Source: Tetracentron sinense (taxonomy: Eukaryota; Streptophyta; Magnoliopsida; Trochodendrales; Trochodendraceae). Taken from it: 64,000 nt of DNA. Positions 40,671-61,564 of this stretch are shown piece after piece (the first letter of the stretch is position 1; each line of letters opens with the position of its first letter). A program made the translations under genes and the position numbers. Below the pieces are notes generated by a model. It saw only the letters and a program-made list of their open reading frames with translations. It was not told the origin of the DNA and searched no databases. Location: positions 14,882,938 through 14,946,937 of the forward strand of contig CM026574.1 of assembly GCA_015143295.1 (NCBI GenBank), given 5' to 3'.

Positions 40671-40954
40671 TCCGTTAGCATATTCTCTCTATTTTAGTGA
40701 AATTACGATGATGCCCATCTTGTTTGTCTTAAATGATTGGTCTAAAATACACGAATGTAAGTAAGTTTATCACTTTATCTTGACATTAAGAAAAGAGCAA
40801 TAGTTTGCTCCATTGGCGAGGAGCGAACTATTGCTCCTCGCTCTGACATAGCCGACCCTTGAACTCTCACTTACTCCGGTTAGAGTTTTTTAACCCTTAA
40901 GTTAATTTATTTTATTTTATTTTTCTAAAAACAAAAGGTAGATGGTGAACCTAA

Positions 40955-41100
40955 TGCTATATTTGGTTGTTGAGAAAATACGTGAAAACATGGAAAAGAA
41001 AAAAAATTTTCGATTTTTAATACAAATTTTAATTGTGTTTTGCCCAATTTTCATTTCATTTCCATGTTTTCACTTATTTTCTCAGCAACCAAATATAGAA
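40955..41100. mobile_element. Harbinger/Tourist-type MITE
   Basis: A 146-bp element with 40-bp-plus terminal inverted repeats (CTATATTTGGTTGTTGAGAA inwards at left; CTATATTTGGTTGCTGAGAA at right). A TAA direct repeat flanks it at 40952-40954 and 41101-41103, the 3-bp target typical of PIF/Harbinger. It sits inside a copy of the dispersed 146-bp repeat family, so it is the later arrival. Confidence 0.8.
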
Positions 41101-41103
41101 TAA

Positions 41104-42322
41104 GGGTGTATGAATCTTAACCACAGTTAAATAGAGTTAGTTAAATGAAGTTAGAAAGGAGACACATGCAAGAAAATTAGAGCCGAGATGCCCCACTTTG
41201 CATCACCTACTATTATTTTCTTTCAAAAATGGTGAGAAAAATTTAGTCATTAAAGAACAAGGAAGATATTCGAACAGATTCCCAAAAATAAATAATAAAT
41301 AAATAAAGGATGGAGATATATTTGGATAGAGCAAAGGTAGGTCAAATTTCTCTCTTATCCACTTTTATCTTTGCCGATAAAAAGGTAAAAAATAGTGATG
41401 AACACACAAAAAGTTGTTATATATATATGTAAAAAAAAATATTATTTTTTCTTATCTATAAAAAGAGAAAATGGATAAGAAGGACAGTTAACTCATAAAG
41501 ATATGAAACAGTTTTGAGTATTGGTATTACAACAATTTGTAGGAAATACAGTAAAAAAAATTGTTCATTAAAAACAAGACGTGAAACAATTGGATGAGAA
41601 TATATTTGGGTATGATACAGTTTTGAATAAAAAATTTGATACTATAAATTTGTAAATATCAAATAATAAGATTACATCTCATTTCAATCACTTACAAACT
41701 ATTTGAGTTGCACCTTCTCATTATATATCAAATGACCAATAACAATTCATGAGGATAAAGTTACAATAAAATAAACAATTACATCATAACTTTAGATGCT
41801 AAATAAAAATAATTTGGAACCTAATAAAATAAACCTTCAAATACTTAATGAAAATAGAGAATAGAACAACAACATGCATTTTACATATAATTTTTCTTTG
41901 GAGCGTTTGATGAGATAAGAATAATGTTAGGGGTAAAGCAAATATTTATCAAAGAGTCTAGAGAAAAAAATGTGTAGTTGAAGAATAATTTGGGGGGTAG
42001 CAGATGGACATCAGGGGTGTTTGGTATATATATATATATTTCTCTAAAAATAACACGATGACGAGAAAGAAACAAAACCTATTTTGGCAACGAGATAATT
42101 TTGAGTCCTTAAAGAAGATAGAGAGGAGTTGCCTACGACAAACTCAAAAAGATAGAAACTATAGTGATCAATTTAACAAATATAAAGAGGAGGTGACGAG
42201 AGTTGAGACTTGAGTTGACACTTACCCCTGGTGTATTTGAGGAAGAAGAACAGAAAAACTAGGATGAAGAAGAAGAAAGAAGAAAACAAAACTAAAATTT
42301 AATAAAGGAGTTTTTAAGGCAT
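41104..42322. other. AT-rich intergenic stretch
   Basis: No gene, transposon ends or strong repeats were recognised apart from short TA runs near 41430 and 42030. Confidence 0.4.
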
Positions 42323-42822: not shown

Positions 42823-43641
42823 TTAAGGATAAATGGGACACATGCAGAATAGGGAACGAGCTCGCTTTTGTTGTTTTGTGCACGAAAGTGACACGTGGAC
42901 GTATGTTTGAGTCACGTGCTTAAAATAGGAGGATACACATTATCTGATGCATAGCTTTCACGTTGTACAAATTAAGACGTATCCGTGGTCTTGCGAAACA
43001 ACGTTCTCGTTGTAGTTTCGACAACGTTTCCGTTGTCTTGTGCACAATGTAGACGTTGTATTCTCGACAACGTTTTCGGTGTTAATTGAACGACGAACTC
43101 GCCGTAATTCAGATAAGGATGTTCAGGTCATATTTTAAGACATATACAACGTATTCGAGCTCGAGTCAACAACGAGACCGACTCGCAGGAGGAGATAAGC
43201 AGGAAGCGATCGATTGTTCTGACAAGTGGGCCGAAAGCACTGCCTCGGTATTTAATGCAGGTCACTTCTGTGTGCTGTCAGACTCAACCGACTGAACTAA
43301 TGGTAGGCTTTCACGTGTGGTGCAACATGTGGTAGATTTTACTGACATATTTGGTAATAAGTGCAGGACACGTGTTATGGGCATCTATGGGCATCTATGG
43401 CCATACCAAAGGTTAACCTATAAATACCCCGAGAATTTCAGTGTTACAGGGATCGAAAGATAGACATATTTTATCAGTGCTCCTACTTGCTTTACTGTTC
43501 ATCATCTTCTTCTTCATCTACTTATTTTATCATTGAAGTACAGGTCAGAGTATCACACCCTCAAACTTCTATCTTCTACCAGTAAATCAGAGGTGAACAT
43601 TTGCTGCTGACGTGTGTCATTTCCGGTATTTTTCCTCCTCA
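42823..43641 (+). mobile_element. Old solo LTR of the same Tat family as 44,549
   Basis: It aligns along its length with the LTRs of the 44,549-56,057 element: ACGTGG and CACGTGCTTAAAATAG near the start, the ACAACG-N4-CGTTGT dyads, GAGTCAACAACGAGACCGAC, CTATAAATACCCCG as TATA box, and an end GGTATTTTTCCTCCTCA. It is clearly more diverged than the two LTRs are from each other, no internal domains flank it, and no target duplication remains, so it is an older solo copy. The first 30 bases align poorly. Confidence 0.75.
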
Positions 43642-44021: not shown

Positions 44022-44548
44022 AACAATCCATGAATGTAACTAAGGTACATAGTTCCATAAACATGTCATTATGTTCCACTTGAAAGGTGTGGTATCAGTC
44101 CGTCTTCATTGAATGCCTTATGGGTATCTTAGATCTCCCGCATTGCCCCAAAATCATTCCCATGGCAACGAGTGACACTCTGATTTAGTAATTACGAACT
44201 TATGTCTAATACTAAGAGAAAAAGGCTAAAAGTGAAAGAACGATAGAAGGGCATTGTCTATCTTGACATATCCCAAAGGATGTACTAATGATGATAGATC
44301 ATCTTGAAAGTACAATTTTCTTTATGATTGGGGTAAATATGGTGTTAAAACTAACATACACAGCATCCATCCAAAAAAATAACGACAAATAGAAACACAA
44401 ATTAATAGCAAAGATTTACACATAGGTGTCTATGCCTACAGCCATAGAGGGATTCTTTCACTAATTTGATGTAAACATTGATTACAATCATCTCAACTCT
44501 CCTTCTATCTCGATTTATGTGTGATGAATAAAACCTACTCATAATGCA

Positions 44549-45444
44549 TGTAACGGATAAAATTCGTAAAATCAACTTAGCGTTGGAGAACGAGTTCGTT
44601 TTTGTTGTTTTGTTTACGAAAGTAACACGTGGACACGAGTTGGGGTCACGTGCTTAAAATAGAGGGATCACACGTTGTCTGATGCACAACGTTCACGTTG
44701 TGCGCATTACGACGTCTTTGTTTTCTTGTAGAACAACGCTTCCGTTGTGGCTTGACAACGTGCTCGTTGTCTGAAGCACAACATAACCATTGTACTCTTG
44801 ACAACGTTTTTGTCGTTACATGAACAACGAGTCCGTTGTCTCACCGACAACGATGTCCTGACTGTATTTTAAGACATCTACACCGTAACCGAGCTTGAGT
44901 CAACAACGAGACCGACTCGTAGGAGGAAGTGATCAGGAGGCGATCCATAATTCTGACAGGTGTGCCGAAAGCACTGTTTTGTGCCGAAAGCACTGTCTTG
45001 GCATTTAATGCTGGTCACTTCTGCGTACTGTCAGATCCCGGCCGACTGAACTCATAGTAGGCTCTCACGTGTGATGCAACAGGTGACAGATATGTCTGAC
45101 ATATTTGGCAATGAGTGCAAGACACGTGGTATGGACATCTATGGCCATCCATGGTCATCGATGGCCATACCAACCTTACCCTATAAATACCCCGTGATTT
45201 TTAGTGCTGGAGATCACGTTTTTGGCCGTACTTCAGAGGATACTTGTTCAGTGCTTCTCAGAATCTTGCGTAACTTTCGGTGCCTATTTCAGAGTTTACT
45301 GTTCATCATCTTCTACATCTACTTACTTTACCATCGGAGTACAGGTCAGGGTGTCACACCCTCCACTCCAACCTTCTACCGGTAAATCAGAGCGTGTGTA
45401 GAGCTGTAGCTGACGCGTGTTCGTGACGGTATTTTTCCCCTTCA
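44549..45444 (+). repeat. 5' LTR of the Tat element
   Basis: It begins TGTAACGGATAAAATTCG and ends GGTATTTTTCCCCTTCA. TATA box CTATAAATACCCC starts near 45181. U3 carries ACAACG-N4-CGTTGT dyads at 44686, 44733, 44755 and 44824 and ACGTG cores near 44627, 44647 and 45067. It is 19 bp longer than the 3' LTR through one short tandem duplication. Confidence 0.95.
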
Positions 45445-45445
45445 A

Positions 45446-45465
45446 AATTGGCGTCGTCTGTGGGA
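45446..45465 (+). other. Primer binding site of the Tat element
   Basis: TTGGCGTCGTCTGTGGGAAC stands directly after the 5' LTR. TGGCGYCGT-type sites are used by Tat and related elements and are usually read as complementary to the 3' end of tRNA-Asp; the tRNA identity is inferred. Confidence 0.65.
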
Positions 45466-45503
45466 ACAATCTGTAAACGAACCCCCCTTTGCTCTTTGTG
45501 ATC

Positions 45504-47100
45504 ATGGCTGATCAGTCATTGGTGTTCGGGCGTGAGGATCAAACCCCTCAGGCCACTCCTTTTGCACCTTCTGTCGTGCACATCCCTGGGGTCAGTCCTT
45601 CGTCTGGGCAACCAGAGAGGACCGTGCCTCCTCCTGTTGAGCTTTCTGTTTCTGATCGCATTTTGGCGATGTTGCAAAGGCAGCAGTCTGCTCTGGATCA
45701 GATCACCAGGCAGCAGCAGTTGATGCAGGAGAGGCTGGAGGCGTTCGAGCATAGCAGGCTCGAGGTGGATGAAGTGCCACTGCAGAGGCCTTCCGTGAGA
45801 CGTCAGCTTGACTTCTCTTCTTCTCTTTCTGCACCGGAGAACCGTGAAACCAGGTCTGTGCTTCTTCCTACTGAAGGGGATGTAAGGCAGCCTCAGGTTC
45901 GGGCAGAGCAGAGTATTCCTTCAGATCGTGTGGATTTGCGAGAATGGGCAGGGCGAGAAGACTTGAGAGGGGGTACCGGAGGTGCAGACGCCCAGAAGAC
46001 TTGGGTGACTGCCAAGGAGGTGGAGGCTTTGATCGGTGCTCGTGTTAAGAGCATGAAGGGAGGGATTCCTGACCACTTTGCTCAGTCAGCAAAGGACAAC
46101 GTTGAGAACTCTCCTTTCACAGACGCCATCAATCAGTCATATACTTCTTCCAAGTTTATAACTCTGATCTTCCCCATGTACACTGGAAGGATGGATCCAG
46201 AGGAGCATTTGTTTGATTTCAAACATGCGATAGCTGTTCGCAATCCAGATGATGACCTGTATTGCAAAGCTTTCCCCAACAGCCTGTCTGGGGCAGCGTC
46301 GAAGTGGTTTCGGAACTTGCCTCCTGGTTCCATCAGTAATTTCTCAGAGCTCAGGTCAGCTTTTATTGATCGTTTCATTATCAATAAAAAGAAGAAAGCA
46401 GGTGCAGATACTCTCTTCTCTTTGAGGATGAAGCCGGCTGAATCCTTGACGGACTTTATTTCGCGTTTCACTGATGAAGTCCACAACATCGATAAAGTCG
46501 ATGAAGGGAGCTATGTCGCTGCTTTCAAGAATGCTATCCCTAGGCATTCCGAGCTCTATAAGTCCTTGGCTCTTGACTATCCTGTCAAGATGGACGAGAT
46601 GATGGTTCGTGCCACTAAGTACGGAAGGTATGAGGAGGACGTATCCGTTGTGCCGAAGCCCAGGACGAGAGTGGTGGATGTCGTAGAGAGGACACACCGA
46701 TCTTCGAAGAGGAAGGAGAAGAAGCAGAGGTACGAGTCTTCATCATCTGAGGACTCACCACCAAGGAAGCAGAAGGAGAGAGTAGTCTATGTGACTCAGC
46801 GGGATCAGCCGGTTTAGCGTCCGCTTGAAGGAAACTTTAATCAGCAGCAGAGTAGGACGGAGAGACGTCCTAATGATCAGCAGCAGGCGAGGCAGCAGTA
46901 TCAGCCACGCCAGGTGCAGCCTCAAGTACAGCAAGAGAGAGGCGTGCAGCCTAGTGAGCGGCGACCTTTTGCAGATCGAGCACCGCCCATCAATTTCACA
47001 GTTAGCCCGGCGACCATCATGAGGTCAATGGAGGATCAGGCGTACTTCGAGTGGCCGGTTAGGGCTGTGCAGGATGTTACATCGGGACCCCGGATGCATG
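45504..47100 (+). pseudogene. Tat element gag region
   Basis: Encodes a structural polyprotein for the virus-like particle. It opens MADQSLVFGREDQTPQATPF, then a glutamine-rich coiled segment (LQRQQSALDQITRQQQLMQE), then the retrotransposon gag domain (FPMYTGRMDPEEHLFDFKHA, GAASKWFRNLPPGSISNF, ADTLFSLRMKPAESLTDFIS) and a basic Ser/Lys-rich tail. A zinc-knuckle-like region (EYCHYHKCRGHLTYQC) follows near 47100-47145. Part of a broken element. Confidence 0.88.
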
Positions 47101-47449
47101 AGTATTGTCATTATCACAAGTGCCGTGGTCATCTCACCTACCAATGTCGTATTCTGAGGGAGTACTTGGAGAGGCTGGTTCAGGAAGGGTACTTGGGAGA
47201 GTATCTTGCTTCTGGCAACGGCGGCATGGAGCATGTCAGGGAGCCGGTATCCCAGTCTCGTGGAGGAGAACCTGCCAGTAATCCAAGTACCAGTGGAGGA
47301 GCTTCCTTTGGCACGATCAATGTCATTTGCCGCGCGCGAGCGCCTGAAGCAGATGTGGAGAGGAACTTCAGGGCGAAGGCCAGGAAGCTGTCTCACGATG
47401 CTGCAGTGTGTCAGGTGCAAGTGCCTACCAGAAGCGTTGAGCAGACACT

Positions 47450-47810
47450 TACTTTCACTGATCGTGATCTGGCAGCAGTAATCCGACCTCACTATGATGC
47501 TCTTGTTCTCACCATGAGAATAAGAGATTTCGACATCAAGAGAGTGCTCGTGGATTCCGGGAGTGGAGCAGACATCTTGTAACTTCATGCTTTCACCCAG
47601 ATGAAGCTGGATCCTTCCGTTCTTATCTCTGCTCAGACTCCACTGTTCGGATTTGATGGCAGCTCGATGAAGCCTGTAGGCGACGTTGTCTTACCCGTTG
47701 TGACTGGACCCGTTGTCCTTCAGACCAGGTTCTCCTTTCTGGATGCGCCATCGCCTTACAATGCCATCTTGGGTCGTTGGTGGACCCATGAGATGAAGGC
47801 TGTTCCGTCC
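47450..47810 (+). pseudogene. Tat element aspartic protease region
   Basis: The retropepsin active-site motif appears as VLVDSGSGADI, with FGFDG and YNAILGRWW-like motifs after it, the pattern of Ty3/gypsy proteases (the last is usually YNAILGR). It would process gag-pol. It lies between gag and reverse transcriptase as expected. Confidence 0.82.
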
Positions 47811-48129
47811 TCATACTATTAGGTGTTGAAATATCCAACGCAGGACGGGCCTCAAGAGATCAAGGGTGATCAGTTGGCATCGCAGAAGTGCGATTTTCCT
47901 GCTTCCGTTGTGCCTCCATAGCAGTTACAGGTCGTTCCCGTTGTGGAAGAGAGCTCGGAAACCTCGTTGTGCAGACCTTCCGTTGAGCCCACAAGAGCTG
48001 TCAATTTGGGAACGGAAGAAAAGCCAAAGGTGTTGCAGGTCGGGACGAGCTTGACAGCGAAGGAAGAGCTCGAGTTGCTGAATTTCCTTAGGCAGAACCT
48101 TGATGTCTTTGCATAGTCTCACAAAGACA

Positions 48130-48860
48130 TGACTGGCATCGATCCGAGTGTTATCTGTCATCACCTCAATGTTGACCCTGCTATCCCTCCAGTGAAGCAG
48201 AAACCTCGGAGGCTTGCTCCAGCTTATCATGATGCAGTGAACGAGGAGATTGACAAGCTGATTCAGTTCGGGTTCATTCAGGAGGTGCAGTACCCTGATT
48301 GGATAGCCAATGTTGTGGCTGTGCCTAAGAAGAACGGGAAGGTGAGAGTTTGTATTGACTTCACTGGTGTCAATAAGGCCTGCCCCAAGGACTTTTTTCC
48401 TATGCCAAGGATAGACTCGCTCATCAACGCCACTGCTGGCCACGAGATGTTATCCTTCATGGATGGTTATTCAGGCTATAACCAGATCCTCCTGGCGGAA
48501 GCAGACCGAGAGAAGACCACCTTCATAACGGAGCGGGGCTTGTTCTGTTATCGAGTGATGCCTTTTGGCTTGAAGAATGCAGGTGCCACCTATCAATGTC
48601 TTATGAATCTCATGTTTGGATCACTTCTTGGCAAAACGGTTGAAGTTTACATCGATGATATCGTTGTGAAGAGTCGAGTACGAGGTACTCTGGTGACGGA
48701 CCTTGCTGATCCTTTCTCTGTTCTGCGATCTTTCAATCTAAAGATCAACCCAGAGAAGTGTACCTTTGGGGTTACCTCAGGAAAATTTTTGGCTTATCTT
48801 GTGAGTCAGCGGGGGATTAAGGCTAATCCAGCTCAGATCCGTGCTTTGCTGGACATGCTA
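48130..48860 (+). pseudogene. Tat element reverse transcriptase region
   Basis: Motifs in order: KQKPRRLAPAYHDAVNEEID, WIANVVAVPKKNGKVRVCID, MDGYSGYNQILLAEADREKT, FCYRVMPFGLKNAGATYQ, the catalytic VYIDDIVVKS, and FNLKINPEKCTFGVTSGKFL. This is the typical non-chromovirus Ty3/gypsy RT. Confidence 0.93.
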
Positions 48861-48899
48861 GAGCCTAAGTCGAAGAAGGAGATCCAGAAGCTGACAGGC

Positions 48900-49950
48900 C
48901 GGATTGCAACACTCAATCGGTTTATCTCCAAGTCATCCGATCGTTGCAAACCTCTTTTCGAGTTGCTGAGAAAGGACTCCATTTTTGCATGGACTCCAGA
49001 GTGTTCTCGAGCATTCCTTGCCTTGAAGGAATATTTAGGCTCAGCTCCTATCCTTTCGGTACCTGAGCCAGATGAAATCTTATATCTTTATCTATCTGTT
49101 TCAGAGCAAGCCCTTGGTTCCGTCCTGGTCAGGAGTTGTGATGGGGTGGAGAAACCTGTTTATTTCATCAATAAAACCTTTCTCAAGGCGGAGTGCAATT
49201 ATAACAAGTTCGAGAAGGTATGTCTAGCTCTTGTCTTTTCTGCGGAAAAGCTTCGTCCTTACTTTCATGCTCATTCTATCGTTGTCATTACAACGTATCC
49301 CTTGAAAGTCGTGCTGGGACGACCTTAGCTGGCGGGGAGGATGTCGAAGTGGGTTGTGGCTCTGAGGAGTTCGATATTCAGTATCGGGCTAGGAGTTCAG
49401 AAAAGGGGCAAGCAATGGCAGGTTTTCTTTCTGATTTCCCTGTGGAGGAGGAAGCAGAGGAGGTGGTTGTTGATCTTCGAGAACTTCCTATTGAAGTTGA
49501 CAACGGAGATGTCGTTGTGGATGGAGCCGAGTCATCAGAGTGGAATGATTGGTTATTGTACGTGGACGGATCTTCTAATTTTAGTGGTTCAGGACTGGGC
49601 GTTGTGCTTATAAGTCCGGAGAACATCAAAGTGCAGAAGATGTCACATCTTGGGTTCACTGCCTCCAACAATGAAGCTGAGTACGAAGCCTTACTGCTTG
49701 GGTTGCAGAGTGCTTGAGAGCTGCAGATCTCCATGTTGAGAGTGTTTTGTGATTCACAGCTCGTGGTGAATCAGGTGAAGGTGTTTATGACTGCAAGGAC
49801 GACCGGATGAAGCAGTATGCTACTCTCATTCGTTCGCAGTTTGAAGCATTCACCGTTGTGGAGATCAGGCACATCCGGAGAGATGAGAACAGGCATGCTG
49901 ACGTTTTGGCATATCTAGCTTCCATGGTGCAGGCTGACGAGCCTAAGGCT
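48900..49950 (+). pseudogene. Tat element RNase H regions
   Basis: The first, RT-linked RNase H has RFISKSSDRCKPLFELLRKD, CSRAFLALKEYL and YLSVSEQALGSVLV. A second, archaeal-type RNase H follows (WLLYVDGSSNFSGSGLGVVL, ASNNEAEYEALLLGL, RHIRRDENRHADVLAYLAS). Two RNase H domains in tandem are characteristic of the Tat lineage, which supports the classification. Confidence 0.85.
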
Positions 49951-50189
49951 ACTCTGATGGAGTTCCAAGAGTATCATTCAATAGCTCTCCAAGCACAGCG
50001 AAAAGTGTTTTTTGTCAATCCAGTTCCGAGCTGGATGACAGGGCTGGTGGCTTATCTGAAGGATGGAATTCTTCCTATCAGTGTGAAGGAGTTGAGGCAC
50101 ATTCTGTTCAAGGCAACTCGTTATGCCTTGGTGCAAGGAAAGTTGTTCAGGAAATCTTTTGGTGGGCCTTTGTTGAAGTGTGTTCATCC

Positions 50190-51282
50190 TGCAGATGTGG
50201 AGAGAATACTTGCTGAGTTGCATGAAGGTATATGTGGTATACATTCAGGCGGGAGAACCATTGCCCATCGAGCTCTGGGGTAAGGTTACTTCTGGCCTTA
50301 CATGCAGGCTGATGCTCAGAAGTATGTGAAGAAGTGCAGCCAGTGCCAGCTGTTTGCTCGTTTGATTCATGCTCCGGCTCAAGAGCTCAACACTGTATCT
50401 CAGCCTTGGCCATTTGCGCGTTGGGGGCTTGATATTGTAAGACCTTTCCCTAGGGCTCCAGGGAATCTGATCTTTCTTCTAGTGGCAACTGATTACTTCT
50501 CTCGTTGGATTGAAGCTGTTCCTCTTGCTCGTATCAGAGAGCAAGAGGTGAAGAAGTTCTTGTGGGAACATATCATCTGCAGATTTGGCATACCGCAATC
50601 CATCAATACTGACAACGGGAAGCAGTTTTCAGGACGTTTGATTGCCAACTTTTACAGCGAGCTGAAGATCAGGCATGTTTTCTCTTCCCCATATTATCCT
50701 CAGGGGAATGGATTGGCCGAGGCAGCCAATAAGAATATTCTCAATGCCTTGAAGAGAAGACTGGAAGATTCGAAGGGGAAGTGGACCGCCGAGCTGCACA
50801 ACGTTTTGTGGGGGTACAGAACAACTTCGAGGAGTCCTACCAATGAAACTCCTTTCTCTCTAGCGTATGGTATGGAAGCTGTTATTCCTACTGAGATCAG
50901 TTTGCCTACAGTGCGTTCTTGGCACAACAAGAAGAAGGATGGAGAGAAAGATCAGAACACAGAGCTTATGGCTATTCATCTCGATCTGCTAGAAGAGAAG
51001 CGAGAAGATGCCAGCATTCAGATGAGGAGGTATCAGCAACGATTGAGGAAAACCTACAACAAGAAAGTACAACGGAGAGTGCTGCAGGTCGGTGATCTCG
51101 TTCTCCGAAGAGTGTTCCAGAACACGAGAGAGCTTAACAGTGGCAAGTTGGGACCTAACTGGGAAGGGCCTTATATCGTAGAACGATTGGGAAGTCCTGG
51201 AGTCTGTTACTTGAAAGACTTACAAGGTAACCTCATCTCAAAATCCTGGAACATTATGAATTTGAGGCAATTCTTTCAATAG
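50190..51282 (+). pseudogene. Tat element integrase region
   Basis: The zinc-binding start is seen as GGRTIAHRALG followed by CSQCQ; the catalytic core has WGLDIVRPFPRAPGN, FLLVATDYFSRWIEAVPL, FGIPQSINTDNGKQF and SPYYPQGNGLAEAANK, with YRTTSRSPTNETPFSLAYGM after it. The C-terminal part (VLQVGDLVLRRVFQNTRELN, KLGPNWEGPYIV) lacks a chromodomain, again fitting Tat. Confidence 0.92.
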
Positions 51283-52075
51283 AATCTATGTTATGCTACT
51301 ACATGCATCGTTGTGCTTACAAGTTTTCAGTGACTTTACATAATCATAGTGCTCATATTTCAACATATGACTTGCAATATTATGCGCCTGCTCGTTGTCT
51401 ACACTATTCTCTGTATGGTTCATCAGTGTAATATTGTGAATGTTTTGCAAGTAATTTCAATAAAATTTTGACTGAACAACCTACTCATAACGAACACGAG
51501 TGGCTTATATAAGGGTGTCATCTGAGCAAATCCAGTGGCTTATCCTAATGACATCCTCTGAGCATGTGCTTCGAAACTGAGTTACATTGTGTTCATCATA
51601 TGAATTTTATTTGTCAGATTGCATTCACATTAAACTACGCAAATGATGTATCTGGAGTAGTACTTGTTCGTAGTGCTTGTTCGTAGTGCTTTGATCGTAG
51701 TATTTGTTCGTAGTACTTGTTCATAGTGCTTTGCTTGTAGTGCTCTACTCGTAGTGTTCTGATCGTAGTGCTTTGATCAAAATAATTTGTTTAAGTATGT
51801 GCATCTGTTATAATTTTTACCCTCATACATACATTCACATAGTAAAGTGCCATATTCACATCAATGCTGTGAACAGTGAAAATTAATTCAACTACTTGTG
51901 CTGTATTGTTTGTGCATACGTTGTGCTACGTTACGAGGTGGAAAGAAACACGTACATAAGAAAGTAAGTGATCCATTCATGCAGAAGACCCATTTCTGGG
52001 TAATTACAGTAACAAAGGAAAGAAAAGAGTTTACATCATCAAAAGAGAAACAGAAACATGAAGGGGAGCAGCAGA

Positions 52076-54560
52076 TCAGGCGAGCTCAAGGTCAGCGTCT
52101 GTCGTCGTTGCAGCAGGGGCAGAAGTAGAGGCTTCAGCAGTTGGGGTTTTTTCTGGAGTAGCTTCATCGGCAGCAACAGGAGCTTCGGGAGCAGTTGGCT
52201 CGAAGTACGGCTCAGCTGGGAGAGGTGTAGGACCTTCGAGAGAGTGAGGTTGCTCAACGCCTTGGACCTCGGTCTCGTTGTCTAGCTCGATCACGTCTTT
52301 GCTCTGAAGCTCAGAGAACGTGATGGCGTCCTCTTCATTGTCTTCTTTCAGACGGCCTTGCTGGCGGAGCGATTCGAGTGTCTCTTTCTCGGTCTCTGCC
52401 CGATCCTCCTCCAAGAGTGTGTCCAGCTGAGACTGATAGTGTTGTTGCAGTCTCAGGGTCACGGTCCTCTCGATGGTCTCTTCAGCTTTCTTGGCCTCCT
52501 CGAGCTCCTCCGCCAGTGCTGTCCTGGCTGCCTCAGTTTCCTCCAGCTGTCTGCCCAAAGCTTGGGAGACGAGCTCCAATTCGCTGATGCGTAGAACAGC
52601 GTTCTCTACCTCCTGTTTGGCCTTCTTCTCGGCCTCCTTTGCTGATCGTGTCTCAGCCTCAGCTTTTTCTTGTGCCTTGGTGACAGCTTTGAACTTCTCC
52701 TCGACGCGAACAGCGCCAGCTTTGGCTTGAGACTGATCAAAGTCTGCCTTGAGTCTCTCCTCGGCGAGAGTCTTCTCCAGCGTCTCAATCCTGTCTTGCC
52801 AGTACTTGATCCCGTCTCGGAGGTGATTGTAGCTATAATGGCTACGATCACAGAGTTCGTGCACGAGCACGTTCATCTGCAAGGAAGTATCCGGGCATTA
52901 GCACAATGAGGAGTAAAATTTCAGCAGTAGAGTAAGAAGAAGAGGAAGTAAGAAACTTACTAACGCCACAGACTGGCAGGCGGCGTAGGACAGTTCGGCC
53001 AGATTGAGATTGCCGACGTCAGTAATGTCTCGGGGCAACCTCATAGCATGAGTCAGAACTCGGGCGGCCTTGTCGGATCTTTGCACCGAGTCGTTTACAG
53101 TCGGTCTCCCGTACCGAGAGAAGTCGGGCGACCAGTCCAGAGCGCTCGCCGGTAGCATACGAGCTGGAAGACTCGTTGTGCCAGCTTCCGTTGCGGCCAG
53201 GGCAACCACAGCGGAACTCGAACTGGCTGGAGCAGTTGCAGCTCGAGAGGGGGTAGGTGCCGAGCTGGCTTCGGGCACCGCCGTTGTCACTTCTGCTCCT
53301 GGAATTGTTACAGGAACGGCAGAGGTGGAGGGGGGAGCAGCAATGGCTGCGTTCTCTTTCTCTAGGCGTATGTCCGCCTTCGCTTTCTTTCTGGCCTCGT
53401 ACTCGGCCTGGGTCGGCGGCTTTCTTTTCGGGTCAGCAGTCGCTGTACCCTTGGAAGGAGGGTTCTTCTTCTTCAATGGTGGTGGCGGTGGTGGCAGCAG
53501 AAATGCAGGGCGAGCAGACCTTGGCTTCCTACTCAGCGGAGGTGGATCTATGCCAGCCATGTCTTCTTCTTCTTCTTCGTCTAAATTAGTTGCTGGTGAA
53601 GGTGCAGAAGTAGAAGCACCTGGATGCTGTTGCTGTTGTTGTGGTTGTTGTTGTCGTCGTTGAGCAGTTGCAATAGGAGTGCTGAAGGCCACCCACGTGT
53701 CAGGCTCCAGTGGTTGCCACCGGACGTATTCCCCACCTCGAACACGTTTGATGTTGGTAAGGAGGCCTTCTTCTTCTGGGGCCAACTTCTTATATGGGAT
53801 CTTCTTTCCGTCAACTGCACACAGAAAAAAGCAGAATGAGTACAACGAGAGTCAGCAGGACGAAAGCATACAACGTACAACGAAAACAGAGTCAGAACAG
53901 TGGTGCACAACGGACAACGGACGACCGTAGTAGTATACCTGGTTTCGCTTGGAAGACATTGGGGACCGTAGAATTCTCTGCCTTCCAACCGCCAGACACA
54001 ACGAAAGGAGTGGCTTTCCACCCTCTTTCTCTATCGAGAATGCCAGAGACGAGCTCTGGATGTAGAGGTTTCTTGTTCCACGAGTAGTAGCAGAACAAAC
54101 CATCGTCAGTGCCTCGGCATCTGACAGCATGGCAGAAGTGGAATAGATGCTTAGCTTCTATTGGGTAATCGTCCTTGATGAATTTGATCATCATGGACAT
54201 ATATTTGTAGAAGCTTGGATGCATTTGTCCCGGTGCGAGTTGCAGGGTGGACAGAATGTCATCCAGGACGGGATGGAGAGGGAAGCGGAGGCCAGACTCG
54301 AGCTGGGAGAGGTAGACGACGGTACAAGCAGAACGCTTATCAATGAGAGCGTCATCTCGCTTGAAGTGGAGATTGACGTGGGAAGGGAAGTCGAAACGTT
54401 CCCTGTAGTGGTTCAGATGTGCCAACTGATGTTGGTGCAGAGCTGAGGATTGTTCGATGTAGGCACCATGAGGTGCGCTACCTGTGCAACTGGCCTCATC
54501 TTCAGTAGGGCCTCTAACTTCCTCTAACCTAATGGGTTCTACGGAAATGTTGGCAGCCAT
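52076..54560 (-). pseudogene. Antisense gene carried by the Tat element (PF04195-like plus coiled coil)
   Basis: Three open blocks on the minus strand, about 53,940-54,560, 52,940-53,820 and 52,080-52,880, separated by two short gaps with GT and AG ends, so they look like exons of one spliced gene. Block 1 starts MAANISVEP and has LSQLESGLRFPLHPVLDDIL and LAPGQMHPSFYKYM, the signature of the putative gypsy-type transposon domain PF04195. Block 2 is rich in Gln, Pro, Ala and Ser (low complexity). Block 3 is a long Glu/Lys/Ala coiled coil (EEKFKAVTKAQEKAEAETRS) with an acidic, Ala/Pro tail. Extra antisense frames between pol and the 3' LTR are known in Tat elements; their function is unknown. 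This one looks open throughout. Confidence 0.75.
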
Positions 54561-54832
54561 AATAGTTGGAAGAAACAACGAAAATGAACAAAGAACAGTG
54601 AACAGAACACAGAAGAATACCCAGAATAGAATCACTCAAAGAACCAGAGAAGAAGAGAGAGAGGGAGAAACAGTAAGAAATATTAAGGAGAAGGGTGAAG
54701 AGCATACCGAACAGAAGACGACTGAGAGAGACTATTAAGAGCTTGAGGAAGATGAACTTTCGGTTGAGAAAAAAATTCGGCAGAGTAACAGTACTTGAAG
54801 GAACAGGGTGAAAGAGAAGGTGCGTTCGATGG

Positions 54833-54847
54833 AGATTTATAAGCATC
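54833..54847 (-). promoter_or_regulatory. Possible TATA box for the antisense gene
   Basis: On the minus strand the text reads GCTTATAAATCTCC, about 280 bp before the antisense ATG. Together with the open coding blocks it suggests a separate minus-strand promoter inside the element. Position only; no transcript evidence. Confidence 0.4.
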
Positions 54848-55168
54848 ACAGATATGTGAAACTACACCACAACCCTTCATCAGAGCCGTACACCTGTGTC
54901 CAAGGGGAGAAGAGCAGTGGCAAGATCGTCTTTTCATCAAAAGAGAGTAACCGTCAGAGTTATTAAAGCATTTTGAAAATCGAAACGGCGATGATGACAG
55001 CCTGTCCGCATTAACGCGACGTGACGGCTAGCACGCGCAACCAGCTGGCGTGAACGGTCGATCTTCTCAGCGAGCGTTTAAAGCACACAACGTTACATCT
55101 TCTGGAGCAGTGCCAGGTATGATCTTTTTGTCCGTTTATGACACTTCGAACTACGTTCCAAGCATCAT

Positions 55169-55180
55169 AAAGGGGCAAAT
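55169..55180 (+). other. Polypurine tract of the Tat element
   Basis: AAAGGGGCAAAT directly precedes the 3' LTR, the place and composition expected for the plus-strand primer. Confidence 0.75.
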
Positions 55181-56057
55181 TGTAACGGATAAAATTCGTA
55201 AAATCAACTTAGCGTTCGAGAACGAGCTCGTTTTTGTTGTTTTGTTCACGAAAGTGATACGTGGACACAAGTTGGGGTCACGTGCTTAAAATAGAGGGAT
55301 CACACGTTGTCTGATGCACAACGTTCACGTTGTGCGCATTACGACGTCTTTGTTTTCTTGTAGAACAACGCTTCCGTTGTGGCTTGACAACGTGCTCGTT
55401 GTCTGAAGCACAATGTAACCATTGTACTCTTGACAACGTTTTTGTCGTTACATGAACAACGAGTCCATTGTCTCACCGACAACGATGTCCTGACTGTATT
55501 TTAAGACATCTACACCGTAACCGAGCTTGAGTCAACAACGAGACCGACTCGTAGGAGGAAGTGATCAGGAGGCGATCCATAATTCTGACAGGTGTGCCGA
55601 AAGCACTGTCTTGGCATTTAATACTGGTCACTTCTGCGTACTGTCAGATCCCGGCCGACTGAACTCATAGTAGGCTCTCACGTGTGATGCAACAGGTGAC
55701 AGATATGTCTGACATATTTGGCAATGAGTGCAAGACACGTGGTATGGACATCTATGGCCATCCATGGTCATCGATGGCCATACCAACCTTACCCTATAAA
55801 TACCCCGTGATTTTTAGTGCTGGAGACCACGTTTTTGGCCGTACTTCAGAGGATACTTGTTCAGTGCTTCCCAGAATCTTGCGTAACTTTCGGTGCCTAT
55901 TTCAGAGTTTACTGTTCATCATCTTCTACATCTACTTACTTTACCATCGGAGTACAGGTCAGGGTGTCACACCCTCCACTCCAACCTTCTACCGGTAAAC
56001 CAGAGCGTGTGTGGAGCTGTAGCTGACGCGTGTTCGTGACGGTATTTTTCTCCTTCA
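55181..56057 (+). repeat. 3' LTR of the Tat element
   Basis: It matches the 5' LTR base for base apart from about 15 substitutions and one 19-bp length difference. It ends TTTTTCTCCTTCA and is followed by the target duplication ATGCA. Confidence 0.95.
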
Positions 56058-56563
56058 ATGCATTTATCTATCAGGTACAATGAAATTAACATTATATTAC
56101 CCCCTACAATATCGGGGAGTTGAGTTTGGTGTACATGGAATCCAAAATAATGATCAACCATAATACGGGGCACAATCATCACATGACCTTATATTGACTA
56201 ACATCCCCTTAGTAAGCATATACTCAATAATACAAGTTCGAGTATTCAACCATGCTTTTAGTCAATTCGTGAAAGCACCTCACCTAAGTAAAATGCATGA
56301 GTTACATGACATATTGTTTTTTTTTTTACTTCCTTACTTGTCCCCAAGTTGTTGTCCTCTTTAACTTATGTTGTTATCCATTTACAACTTTTTTCCTTAT
56401 CTAAAAATGTCCAAAATCCTTCAAAAATGAAGTAATGAGTTGAGACGTCCCTTGCCAGTTAGGTCAACCTAGAAAAGGCTATCTTCCTAATTAAATGTGT
56501 AGCTTCTACTACGCGAGGTTCAAATGAGGAAAGACTTATGATGGATTCCTAAGCCTCTAGAGA

Positions 56564-57673: not shown

Positions 57674-57949
57674 TCTTTACTATTATAATGGGAGAGGCAG
57701 GCTACGCCTGAATTTTTTGAAATTCCTAAACTACCCTTATATAAAACAAAACTTTAATTTAATGTTTTACTTTAATTACCAAACTACCCTCATTTGCCTA
57801 TTTAGAGAATAGAATCACAGTCAATCACGATTGAACTCGGGGAGAGTTCAATCACACCCACGGGTTAACATGTGACCCTTTTAACTCCTATTAACTATGA
57901 TTAACTCCTTTCCCTCGCTCTCACGTGCATCGCACGTGCCACCCGCTAG
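57674..57949 (+). mobile_element. Non-autonomous Helitron, 276 bp
   Basis: Starts TCTTTACTATTATAATGGG after an A (57673) and ends in the hairpin CACGTGCATCGCACGTG followed by CCACCCGCTAG and a T (57950): 5' TC, 3' hairpin plus CTAG, insertion between A and T, as Helitrons do. No Rep/helicase is encoded. Its body has GATTGAACTCGGGGAGAGTT, shared with the copies at 60,512 and 60,888. Confidence 0.88.
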
Positions 57950-57950
57950 T

Positions 57951-60471
57951 ACAAGAATAAATGAACACTATATCTGATAGTCTCAATGGGTAGTGGCTTG
58001 GATCATAGAGTTTGCCTTTTCTCGTTCACATTGATAGTTTGAGATCAGTTTAAGCTGCTTTTCTTAGAGGGATCGTGTTTTTGAATCAAATCAAAGCATT
58101 GCAACCCGTTAAAAAGTGTGTGCTTTAATGGAGAGAATGGACATGGTTGACTTAGGTTGAGAGTAGGAAAGGCATGAGAGTAGGAATAGTCCTTAATTTT
58201 AATTTTGGTTGACTAGGCTCTCTCTTTAAGCGTTTTTTTGGCAGATTTTGACGGATGCTATTCAATTACACCAAACTCTCAAACAAATAACGAATTAGGG
58301 GAGAGATCTTTGGACGTTACAACTACATAAAATAAACTACCTATTTGGTTGAGAGTTTGAAACCACTAAAGTTTCTTATGCCCCCAAGTTACAATAAAGG
58401 AAGTTTGTTTCGTTAACGACAGCCATTTCTCTATACTATTTCTACATGCTTTACTCCACCCACTTCACGTTATTTTCGCCAATAAAGGGTCCCTGGTATC
58501 ATTTAGGCTTGAGAGATGCTAGTCCCACACTTTCATACTCTCATTGTGGTGGTAACACATGTCGCTACTTTTCCCAGTTACCAATGGAATAGTTGATATT
58601 ATAATGACATTTTAAATATTTGTTTTCTTAACTGTTGAAGAATAGCAATGACAAGTGTTGCCATCAGAGTGAGAGTTTGGAAGTGTCCATATGGGGCTAG
58701 CATTTCCCGTTGTGAGCCTTCACTTAGATGGATTCCCACTATTTTTTTTTTTTTTAATTAGAATTTTTAGTTCTTAATTGATTAGACGGTCAAGATATGC
58801 TTGAGTTCAATCTGAGTTTTGGGCCCATAAAAGACTTGGCGGCCCACACGATTGAATCGTTTGCTTAGCAGGTAGTCTATTGGGAATGTACGTACTCAAG
58901 TCCTTCACAAATTTTCATTTCAGATTTTGCTAGTTTCACTCTCACACTTGTGCATTCGCCCCAAAAGGGAATGAAAGACAAGAAATTTTGTTGAGGCCAA
59001 CATTGACCTAAGACGCCTTACTGGCCAAATGCATAAGGAGTAGAGTGCAGCCTAGAGATGGAATCAGGATTTTCTAGTTTGGGGTGGAGGGATGGGTATG
59101 CAATGGCAGATTGAAAATTGCAATAATTATTGATGGATTTTTGTGGAGAATGATTAAGCAAGTACAAAATATTTGGAGAATGCGGGCTGTAGCCCCTTTT
59201 CTTTTGATGACTAATATTGGGTTTGTGGAGAACTGATTTCGTATGTATCTTAATTATGGGTATTGTGTCTACTTGTTTACCAGATAGTTGTATATTGTCC
59301 TATGGCTATCTCCTGTTAAATAATTAAATAATACGAAATAAAAAATATATTTTATTTTCAAAAGTTCAGTTATGCTCTTATCCCTGGATATGTTCTATTA
59401 AAAAATCAAATAATCTACTATAATTTTCTGACCGGACAACTACCCCTTCTACAATGATTATACTCAATTAAGCAATTAAATAACTTAATAACAAAATAGA
59501 TTTTCCCATAAGTTTAAGGGCCACCTGCCCATTCCCATGGCTATAGCTGCTATGTCTTAAAAAAACTATTGTTCTTCAAAAATTGAGGGGGGACACATGC
59601 CCCCATTTTGAGTGCAGCTATCATTTATTTCACTCCTCACACTCATCACCAAGAGTGGAGCTAGCAATCCCCATTACGATAATGTCCACCAATCCACCCC
59701 CATATTTTATGGAAGGATAATGCTAGCAACACTTTAAAGAGCCACCCTCCTTTTGATTGACGAGTTGCTACTTGAAAATACGTGTCTTTCCCTTAATGGA
59801 AAGCAATAACAAGTGTTTTCTCTTTGAAAAAAGTAAGATTAAAAGCTAGCATTACCTTTTATGGAAAATAGTTGTAATGCACTATATACTATATAGTCCT
59901 ATGGCTACTCCTAAATATACTCTCATACATACTCTCGAATTTTAATCATTCATGACTAATCATTAAGGGTCGAGATTAATGCCGAGTTGGCATGCTTTTG
60001 AGAACTATAATGGCTGTAAACTCTAGCATTTATCTAATTTATTAAAAAAGTAGAAAAAAACTTGACAACGATTTCCGTTCTAAACAACGTAAGCCTAAGT
60101 TACATAAAATAAAGCCCACCTTCTTTAACTTTCCTTATCAATTTGATCACTTCTAAAACTTAAATAATTAAACAACTCAATGGCGCAAATAACTATAAAA
60201 AAATTAAAATTTATTGTATAAAGTATAAACTATAATACCTCCAGCGTATTACGAGGGTTGTGGATCGAACTAAATAATAATACTCAACTAAATAATAATA
60301 CTCACCTGCCTCTGCTTATCTTATTAGCCATGTAAGAAGGAAAAATTAGTAGGCAAGGAAGATAAATAAAACATAATAAACCCAAACTAACAAAGAAAAA
60401 TCTTAAGAGAAGTCAAGTATCTCGTGGAAGAAAATGTAGCAAGATGTAATACACAATACAGTTATAGCCTC

Positions 60472-60477
<6 letters not shown>
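57951..60477. other. Intergenic stretch, no gene recognised
   Basis: AT-rich DNA with T runs (58741-58755), a piece of the second MULE-MITE family (about 59,890-60,020) and no open frame resembling a protein. Confidence 0.45.
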
Positions 60478-60511
<34 letters not shown>

Positions 60512-60515
<4 letters not shown>

Positions 60516-60887
60516 TATTATAATGCGAGATGCATGCGTAGATGATATTTTCGAAATTCCCAAATTACACTTATATAAAAACAAAACATTGATTTAATGT
60601 TTTACTTTAATTCTCAAACTACACTTGCCTTTGATTTAATGTTTTACTTTCATTCCTAAACTACCCCTTGTCATCTATCTATTTAGAATCACAGCCAACC
60701 GCGATTGACCTTGGGGAGAGTTCAATCACACCCGTGAGTTAACAAGTGCCCCTTTTAATTCGTATTAATTATGGTTAACTCATTTCCCTCGCTCTCACGT
60801 GCATTGCAAGTGCCACTAGCGAGTTCAATCAGGTGTCGTTAACTCCTTCCCCTCGCTCTCACGTGCATCGCACGTGCCACCCGCTAG
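60512..60887 (+). mobile_element. Non-autonomous Helitron with two successive 3' ends
   Basis: It starts with ACTATTATAATGCGAGATGC and ends CACGTGCATCGCACGTG then CCACCCGCTAG. About 70 bp earlier there is a first, decayed end (CACGTGCATTGCAAGTG then CCACTAG), so the 3' terminus is present twice. The 5' TC is lost in the adjoining TA microsatellite (60478-60512). Confidence 0.8.
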
Positions 60888-61146
60888 TAACTATTATAAT
60901 GCGAGAGGCAAGCGTAGCCTGATTTTTCTGAAATTCCCAAATTATCCTTATATAAAACAAAACTTTGATTTAATGTTTTACTTATTTCCCAAACTACCCC
61001 TTGCTCATCTATCTATTTAAAGATAGTCACAGCCAATCGCGATTGAACTCGGGGAGAGTTCAATCGCACCTACAGGTTAACATGTGTCCCTTTTAACTCC
61101 TATTAACTGTGGTTAACTCCTTCCCTTCGCGCGTGCCTCCCGCTAC
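60888..61146 (+). mobile_element. Non-autonomous Helitron joined head to tail to the previous one
   Basis: It begins immediately after the previous CTAG with TAACTATTATAATGCGAGAGG and ends GCGCGTGCCTCCCGCTAC; its 3' hairpin is eroded. Body text (GATTGAACTCGGGGAGAGTT, TTAACTCCTATTAACTGTGG) matches the 57,674 copy. Confidence 0.75.
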
Positions 61147-61564
61147 TATATATATATATATATTAATGAACGGATAAACAAACGATGAAATTTAGATAAG
61201 ATAGAAATATTTTCTGATTGAGGAGAGAGAGAAGAAAAATAAAAATCTTAGTCACTTATCTATTAACTAAATATAAGGCAGACTTTTTTCTCCCCTCCTC
61301 CTTTCGCCACGTAAGATTATAATGTTCTCATCTTATGACACATGTCACACTGATCACCTTGTTCTTCTCATTCTCAAACGACACACCTCTCTCTGTCTCT
61401 TTCCTCTATCTTCTATCCTCAAACGACACAACTCTTGTGAAGAGTTATCTCAAATGTATAGATTAGTATTAACCCATTAATTGAAAAAAAAATAAAGACA
61501 TGTTGATTAGGCACCCTATCCCAATCTCTATCCACACTACTCTTTGTTAGAGTTCCCAATAACC

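Follow-up and report, generated by a model that had tools for sequence, protein, structure and literature searches.

The region between pol and the 3' LTR of a Retand-type retrotransposon from Tetracentron sinense very probably carries a single spliced gene of three exons on the minus strand, judged from reading frames and from comparison among copies. Within the window, the 64,000-nucleotide stretch of DNA analyzed here, this gene runs from an ATG at 54560 to a stop codon at 52078-52076, and its three blocks join at GT-AG borders into a single 759-codon frame with a 758-aa product. Reasoning by analogy, we favor, with moderate confidence, its interpretation as an antisense accessory gene of the element: one three-exon gene for an HBZ-like nuclear accessory protein.

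Exon map and host retrotransposon

Exon 1 (53939-54560, minus strand; 207 codons plus 1 nt) is an open frame with a PF04195/TRP28-like stretch at 54129-54320. It is followed by intron 1 (53815-53938; 124 nt, GTATAC...GTGCAG, phase 1), which contains a branch-point-like CTGAC at 53855-53851, and by exon 2 (52961-53814). Intron 2 (52877-52960; 84 nt, GTAAGT...TTGCAG, phase 0), with a branch-point-like CTAAT at 52901-52897, leads into exon 3 (52076-52876; 266 codons plus stop), which encodes a predicted long helix (52313-52873) and then a proline/alanine-rich tail. Read-through of either intron is impossible because each contains an in-frame stop; the remaining five frames across each exon contain 3 to 17 stops. 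A preliminary description of this DNA had proposed three open antisense blocks at 52076-54560, apparently spliced and preceded by a TATA-like motif on the minus strand. Its coordinates proved exact and all blocks are open, the splicing is borne out as sequence by one frame running through two GT-AG introns, and the motif was found as TATAAAT at 54841-54835 (minus strand), 281 nt ahead of the ATG, where motif comparison across copies marks it as a TATA box candidate.

The gene lies in an 11.5-kb Tat/Retand-type LTR retrotransposon (44549-56057, plus strand). The features by which an LTR retrotransposon is recognized are all present: a 5' LTR of 896 bp (44549-45444) with the PBS directly after 45444, a 3' LTR of 877 bp (55181-56057) with a purine tract ahead of 55181, and an ATGCA target-site duplication on either side of the element. 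Between the two LTRs, 15 of 877 aligned sites are different (K2P 0.0174), and there is one 19-nt gap. Assuming 0.7 to 1.3e-8 substitutions per site and year in plants, this divergence corresponds to an age of roughly 0.7 to 1.2 million years. Gag-pol (45477-51282, plus strand) had been described as broken, and the window copy indeed consists of six open pieces of at least 150 aa, delimited by ORFs and Pfam matches. These match gag (PF03732), RT (PF00078), RNase H (PF17919), and integrase (PF00665), while two of the six are without any family match. A second RNase H-like piece matches PF13456 at the expected place with E = 3.5e-4, its 20.9 bits lying below the cut-off of 21.6; in Ogre and Retand, a second RNase H lies between RNase H and integrase (PMC6317226). 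Between pol and the antisense gene is a short tandem array of 13/40-nt units (51657-51778), as found in about half of published Retand elements (PMC11963269). The POL-3'LTR region (51283-55180; 3.9 kb) contains the antisense gene and agrees with that of Retand elements, which spans 2,933 to about 6,560 bp and bears antisense ORFs; the LTR, internal, and POL-3'LTR sizes of the element all fall within the ranges given in that survey (PMC11963269). An Rfam scan of 44500-56100 returned nothing at gathering scores.

Several further repeats were seen near the element. A partial LTR-like copy 1.7 kb upstream (42854-43242), which matches parts of the element's LTRs at 76-88% identity, is perhaps a solo LTR or a remnant. 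An inverted repeat at 40950-41105, with 60-nt arms that are 87% complementary and spaced by 36 nt, looks like a small hairpin transposon. On the other side, two direct repeats, of 94 and 145 nt, each occur three times within 57679-61166, together with a TA microsatellite.

Constraint and splice signals among copies

Related copies were collected from the 1.16-Gb genome (1,479 contigs), with matches at megabase coordinates on C1 to C24; the search scored 150 of 2,697 exon-1 candidates, 121 of 26,588 integrase candidates, and 40 of 1,037 5'-flank candidates, so that copy numbers are lower bounds. We compared 27 copies of 6-8 kb, picked independently of the exons (20 by integrase and 7 by the non-coding 5' flank), which with 4 partial copies from the exon-1 search and the window gave an alignment of 32 rows. 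Omega was calculated over 30 rows (excluding L007 and L020 and including three partial copies from the exon-1 search) from two-state codon columns differing at one base. These were split into singletons, which are mostly post-insertion changes, and shared variants, which come mostly from the transposing lineage, and the expected ratio of nonsynonymous (N) to synonymous (S) changes was derived from the mutation spectrum of the flank and introns. In the codon columns that remained once multi-state columns and columns with a multiple change had been excluded (74/207, 163/284, and 126/266 in exons 1-3; 56/332 in integrase), shared variants gave an omega of 0.29 in exon 1 (N 14, S 22; 95% 0.13-0.57), 0.20 in exon 2 (N 12, S 27; 0.10-0.39), and 0.24 in exon 3 (N 12, S 24; 0.12-0.48). 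The corresponding value for integrase over 27 rows, 0.06 (N 7, S 50), is flattered because most copies were picked by integrase. Singletons gave 0.50, 0.57, and 0.75 for exons 1-3 and 0.49 for integrase. The dN/dS comparison that had been proposed as a check on the blocks therefore speaks against their neutral evolution, and the per-exon range of 0.20-0.29 suggests, at the level of sequence, purifying selection on the codons of all three exons among the copies. Variants, indels, and splice sites were counted over related sequences, and the counts are not independent.

Control frames varied in how much they could tell. Shifted frames on the same strand gave omega values of 1.28 to 3.73 for shared variants. 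Two other controls were noisy. When the 5' flank was treated as coding, its three frames yielded 2.19, 0.48, and 0.92; four intron frames had a defined value, 0.26-0.65, each based on 4 to 7 shared variants. On the sense strand, the mirror frame scored low as well (0.32, 0.33, and 0.32 for exons 1-3; 0.29 for integrase), because it shares its third positions with the antisense frame. With 9, 3, and 10 stops in exons 1, 2, and 3, it is not the coding frame, and the coding strand is decided by stops and not by omega.

Indels shorter than 60 nt were counted per copy against the window in 31 copies, L020 included, so that jointly inherited indels were counted repeatedly. Those in threes versus those not in threes numbered 0/2 in exon 1, 58/17 in exon 2, and 3/27 in exon 3, compared to 0/14 in intron 1, 0/9 in intron 2, 11/111 in the 5' flank, and 1/17 in the 3' flank. 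By hand count, the truncated and misaligned L020 contributes 19 of the 27 out-of-frame indels in exon 3, 6 of the 17 in exon 2, and 2 of the 9 in intron 2. Exon 3 indels are mostly out of frame even without this copy (8 versus 2 in threes), and the indel argument thus rests on exon 2. In one subfamily (L016, L019, L022, L023, L024, and L027), the antisense region is 79.7-85.1% and pol 89.5-92.2% identical to the window, indicating that the antisense region evolves faster than pol.

Intactness was scored in 27 full-cover rows including the window (L020, L007, and three other partial copies were excluded). Donor 1 is GT and acceptor 1 is AG in all 27; GT stands at donor 2 in 26, the other row having a gap, and AG at acceptor 2 in 24, the others being two AA and one gap. 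The antisense gene as a whole, with ATG, frame, stop, and splice sites, is intact in 6 of the 27 rows, the window among them. The preliminary description had singled out the open antisense gene beside a broken gag-pol as special, a contrast that this count does not support, and we dropped the openness of the window copy as a sign of care. With so few intact rows, old copies evidently degenerate, and selection operates in the transposing lineage.

The TATA box candidate was followed in the same alignment. TATAAA is retained in 26 of 30 rows, a count that excludes L020 and the 31st row, L013, which ends short of the position. A 12-bp deletion removes it in L017, L029, L030, and L031, which nonetheless form a multi-copy subline; this subline may rely on protein supplied in trans or on another start. 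A further 11 diverged copies match the window at 72% over the 20 bases that begin at 54840, and every one has TATAAA.

A genome search with PF04195 found at least 23 places above cut-off (29.5 to 34.5 bits) among the 150 of 1,515 candidates scored, and 10 of these, hand-picked mostly for long frames, make up a divergent set. Nine of the ten match all three exons in the same order, and L036 matches exon 1 only. Exon 1 of these nine is 65-86% identical to the window; grouping the nine copies plus the window by exon-1 identity gives five groups at 80% and eight at 90%. At synonymous sites of exon 1, 60-77% differ from the window in eight of the nine copies and 29% in L043. Comparison with the window gave a finite dN/dS in 7 of 10 cases for exon 1 (0.05-0.22), in 8 of 9 for exon 2 (0.14-0.39), and in 5 of 9 for exon 3 (0.13-0.29); the remaining comparisons were saturated, and overlapping matches were left unmerged, so that some codons (e.g., in L044 exon 3) were counted twice. 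In L038/L046, the one divergent copy checked for this, RT is 80% identical and again on the strand opposite the antisense gene. Its 5-kb piece gave no integrase match, and this copy may carry a deletion or be non-autonomous.

Splice signals mostly persist across this divergence. In the nine copies, donor 1 is GT in 9/9, acceptor 1 AG in 7/9, donor 2 GT in 5/9, and acceptor 2 AG in 7/9, so that 28 of 36 dinucleotides are canonical and 8 are not; positions were set by protein alignment, and the place of donor 2 in L037, L039, and L040 shifts with the extent of that alignment. YTRAY, the usual plant branch-point form, occurs 14-45 nt before the 3' end of both introns in all ten sequences, against shuffled means of 2.7 and 3.4, figures that serve only as a guide since the ten sequences are related. 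Eight of the nine copies share 50-66% identity with the window in intron 1 (shuffled, 44-48%) and 30-42% in intron 2 (shuffled, 46-51%); the shuffled values come from pairwise and the real ones from joint alignment, so that the two are not strictly comparable. L043 is closer, at 85% and 71%. As aligned, intron 1 keeps some resemblance across the divergent copies and intron 2 hardly any. Intron lengths change by non-multiples of three, so that only splicing keeps one frame, and read-through or a fixed frameshift is ruled out. The first codon of exon 3 is ATG in only 4 of 10 sequences (the window, L038, L039, and L043) and TTG, CTG, or CTA in the others, which speaks against a separate ORF starting there. 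Canonical introns are thus retained in position and phase over this divergence, as expected of a spliced coding gene.

Minus-strand introns can persist in an LTR element because its cycle reverse-transcribes the sense RNA, where these sequences do not read as splice sites. The spliced junctions 1 and 2 (33 and 34 bases, up to 3 mismatches) had no occurrence each in the genome, while the exon 1-intron 1 border, a control for the junction 1 search only, occurred 280 times. As the patterns fit the close family only, the absence of intron-less junctions leaves splicing neither supported nor refuted.

Features of the predicted protein

The 758-aa product is laid out as a PF04195-like (TRP28) N terminus, a linker with a bipartite nuclear-localization-like motif, and a long C-terminal helix. 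The PF04195 likeness proposed for the first block stands as a profile match, at E = 1e-4 for exon 1 of the window copy and in 10/10 aligned members of the diverged-copy group at E up to 0.1 (best, 3e-7); the window copy itself, however, scores 22.9 bits, below the Pfam cut-off of 26.2. By profile comparison, then, it is the aligned group rather than the window copy alone that belongs with PF04195. Searching an exon 1 profile against solved structures found no relative (best E, 1.2), and structure prediction for exon 1 alone was without a usable model (pLDDT 33), so that DNA binding by TRP28 is without support here.

Exon 2 opens with some 35 residues that, by eye, are better kept and extend the exon 1 block, which means that intron 1 cuts a conserved block. 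The remainder diverges fast and is a low-complexity linker, as had been said of the middle block. Within exon 2 lies the bipartite motif KRKPPTQAEYEARKKAK (protein residues 337-353; 53378-53428, minus strand), identified by pattern match. The pattern (KR, 9-12 residues, basic cluster) is present in 10/10 peptides against a shuffled mean of 0.28 of 10, although it was composed after the motif had been seen, and other exon 2 stretches also fit it in 8 of 10 sequences. From this sequence evidence, we consider a nuclear site of action of the antisense protein likely. The fast-changing linker also contains a methionine codon (53560-53558, minus strand, gacATGg) that recurs nearby in 10/10 sequences and is a possible internal start of a shorter form with the nuclear motif and the helix and without TRP28.

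For exon 3 alone, AlphaFold2 predicts one helix over residues 2-188, with ten-residue block means of 91-97 across residues 11-160. Of the coiled coil proposed for this block, the single long helix is thus upheld by prediction, but the heptad test is not significant for 3.5-residue hydrophobic periodicity (P = 0.11). Exon 3 also matched CUX1_N below the cut-off (E 0.03), which we set aside as mere helix similarity. A search of viral contigs for relatives gave 30 pattern matches, of which 0 were confirmed.

Proposed role and relation to known antisense genes

The HBZ gene of HTLV-1 starts in the 3' LTR, whereas the candidate promoter of the antisense gene described here is internal; HBZ is not known to have a counterpart of TRP28. 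The comparison between the two is an analogy, with no homology claimed: the HBZ mRNA comes from the minus strand close to the 3' end of its retroelement and encodes a nuclear leucine-zipper protein, which acts on HTLV-1's own transcription (PMC3185765). HBZ also has spliced forms (PMC6237760). By the mechanism that we propose, RNA polymerase II would initiate minus-strand transcription close to the TATA box at 54841, and the host spliceosome would remove both introns, allowing the 758-aa protein to be made. The bipartite basic motif would carry this protein into the nucleus, the long helix of exon 3 would make it an oligomer, and the TRP28 domain might bind DNA or chromatin belonging to the element or to its pre-integration complex. 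So bound, the protein could tune sense transcription or a nuclear transposition step, as HBZ does for HTLV-1. That it is a regulator of the element, rather than having another nuclear role, is a reading that by analogy falls just short of an even call.

The closest competitor, which we hold to be unlikely yet worth serious attention, keeps the spliced protein and assigns it a non-regulatory nuclear step, in which it travels with the pre-integration complex and aids import or integration-site choice. The kept basic motif fits such a role, as does the DNA-related function that a prediction program suggested for TRP28 (PMC11963269), whereas a separate minus-strand mRNA would be an odd source for a structural component. 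Alternatively, the antisense RNA itself might be functional, through double-stranded RNA, silencing, or self-limitation, with the protein as a by-product. Functions of this kind have been proposed for antisense transcripts generally (PMC7264820), and the two RNAs, antisense and sense, would overlap for 2.5 kb or more. We nevertheless regard this as improbable in view of the codon-level constraint and the exon 2 indels in threes; moreover, exon-1 identity stays at 65-86% although at least 60% of synonymous sites have changed in eight of nine copies, which points to the protein.

Recent capture of a host gene by the element would account for gene-like introns and a promoter, and capture in antisense would be expected to preserve the introns. 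It is a very improbable origin, given that the gene is found in nine divergent copies, opposite RT in the one checked (L038/L046), and that TRP28 is reported to be without similarity outside transposable elements (PMC11963269). The spread of a three-exon gene over nine divergent copies, which with the window make five groups at 80% identity, argues for an old resident rather than a recent capture; an old capture of a host gene may have taken place. Least credible of all is a neutral fossil whose open stretches and GT-AG borders arose by chance. GT and AG are common dinucleotides and just 6 of 27 rows are intact, but the low omega of shared variants, the exon 2 indels in threes, the kept splice signals, and the kept basic motif stand so firmly against it that we give it next to no weight.

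Much of this arrangement has precedents among plant retrotransposons. In the survey of Vicient (2025, PMC11963269), antisense TRP28 ORFs occur in 97% of recently active Retand clusters, and SMC-like antisense ORFs are also reported. The TRP28 ORFs resemble the gene described here in their position between pol and the 3' LTR, antisense strand, PF04195 match, and accompanying tandem array, and a comparison with the antisense gene of HTLV has already been drawn there. The difference is that several antisense ORFs, some of them SMC-like, are listed singly in that survey, while here they are exons of one gene. Gene23 of maize Grande is another antisense gene between pol and the 3' LTR; it is transcribed from its own promoter and yields a nuclear protein (Gomez-Orte 2013, as told in PMC7264820). 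The bipartite basic motif found here fits that nuclear site. ORF2 of PvRetro13, antisense and SMC-like, is comparable by description only to the exon 3 helix, and was reported as its own ORF, whereas the helix here is one exon of a larger gene (PMC7264820). In the accessible text of PMC11963269, the word "intron" is absent and "splic" appears in the reference list only; in that of PMC7264820, "intron" is likewise absent, and the text urges a search for antisense and spliced transcripts. Relative to these portions of the two papers, the view of antisense ORFs as exons of one old spliced gene is new, although its priority is uncertain.

We see about an even chance that this view extends to the family, such that the separately catalogued Retand antisense ORFs would be exons of a single ancestral, intron-bearing minus-strand gene encoding a nuclear, oligomeric, DNA-binding accessory protein. 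A spliced antisense regulator would then have evolved independently of that of HTLV, its introns surviving through replication via the other strand. If this is true, ORF-by-ORF annotation splits one gene, and work on the protein should address the 758-aa spliced product. The exon map supplies junctions that can be checked against plant RNA data, and it thereby makes the question of antisense ORF function testable.
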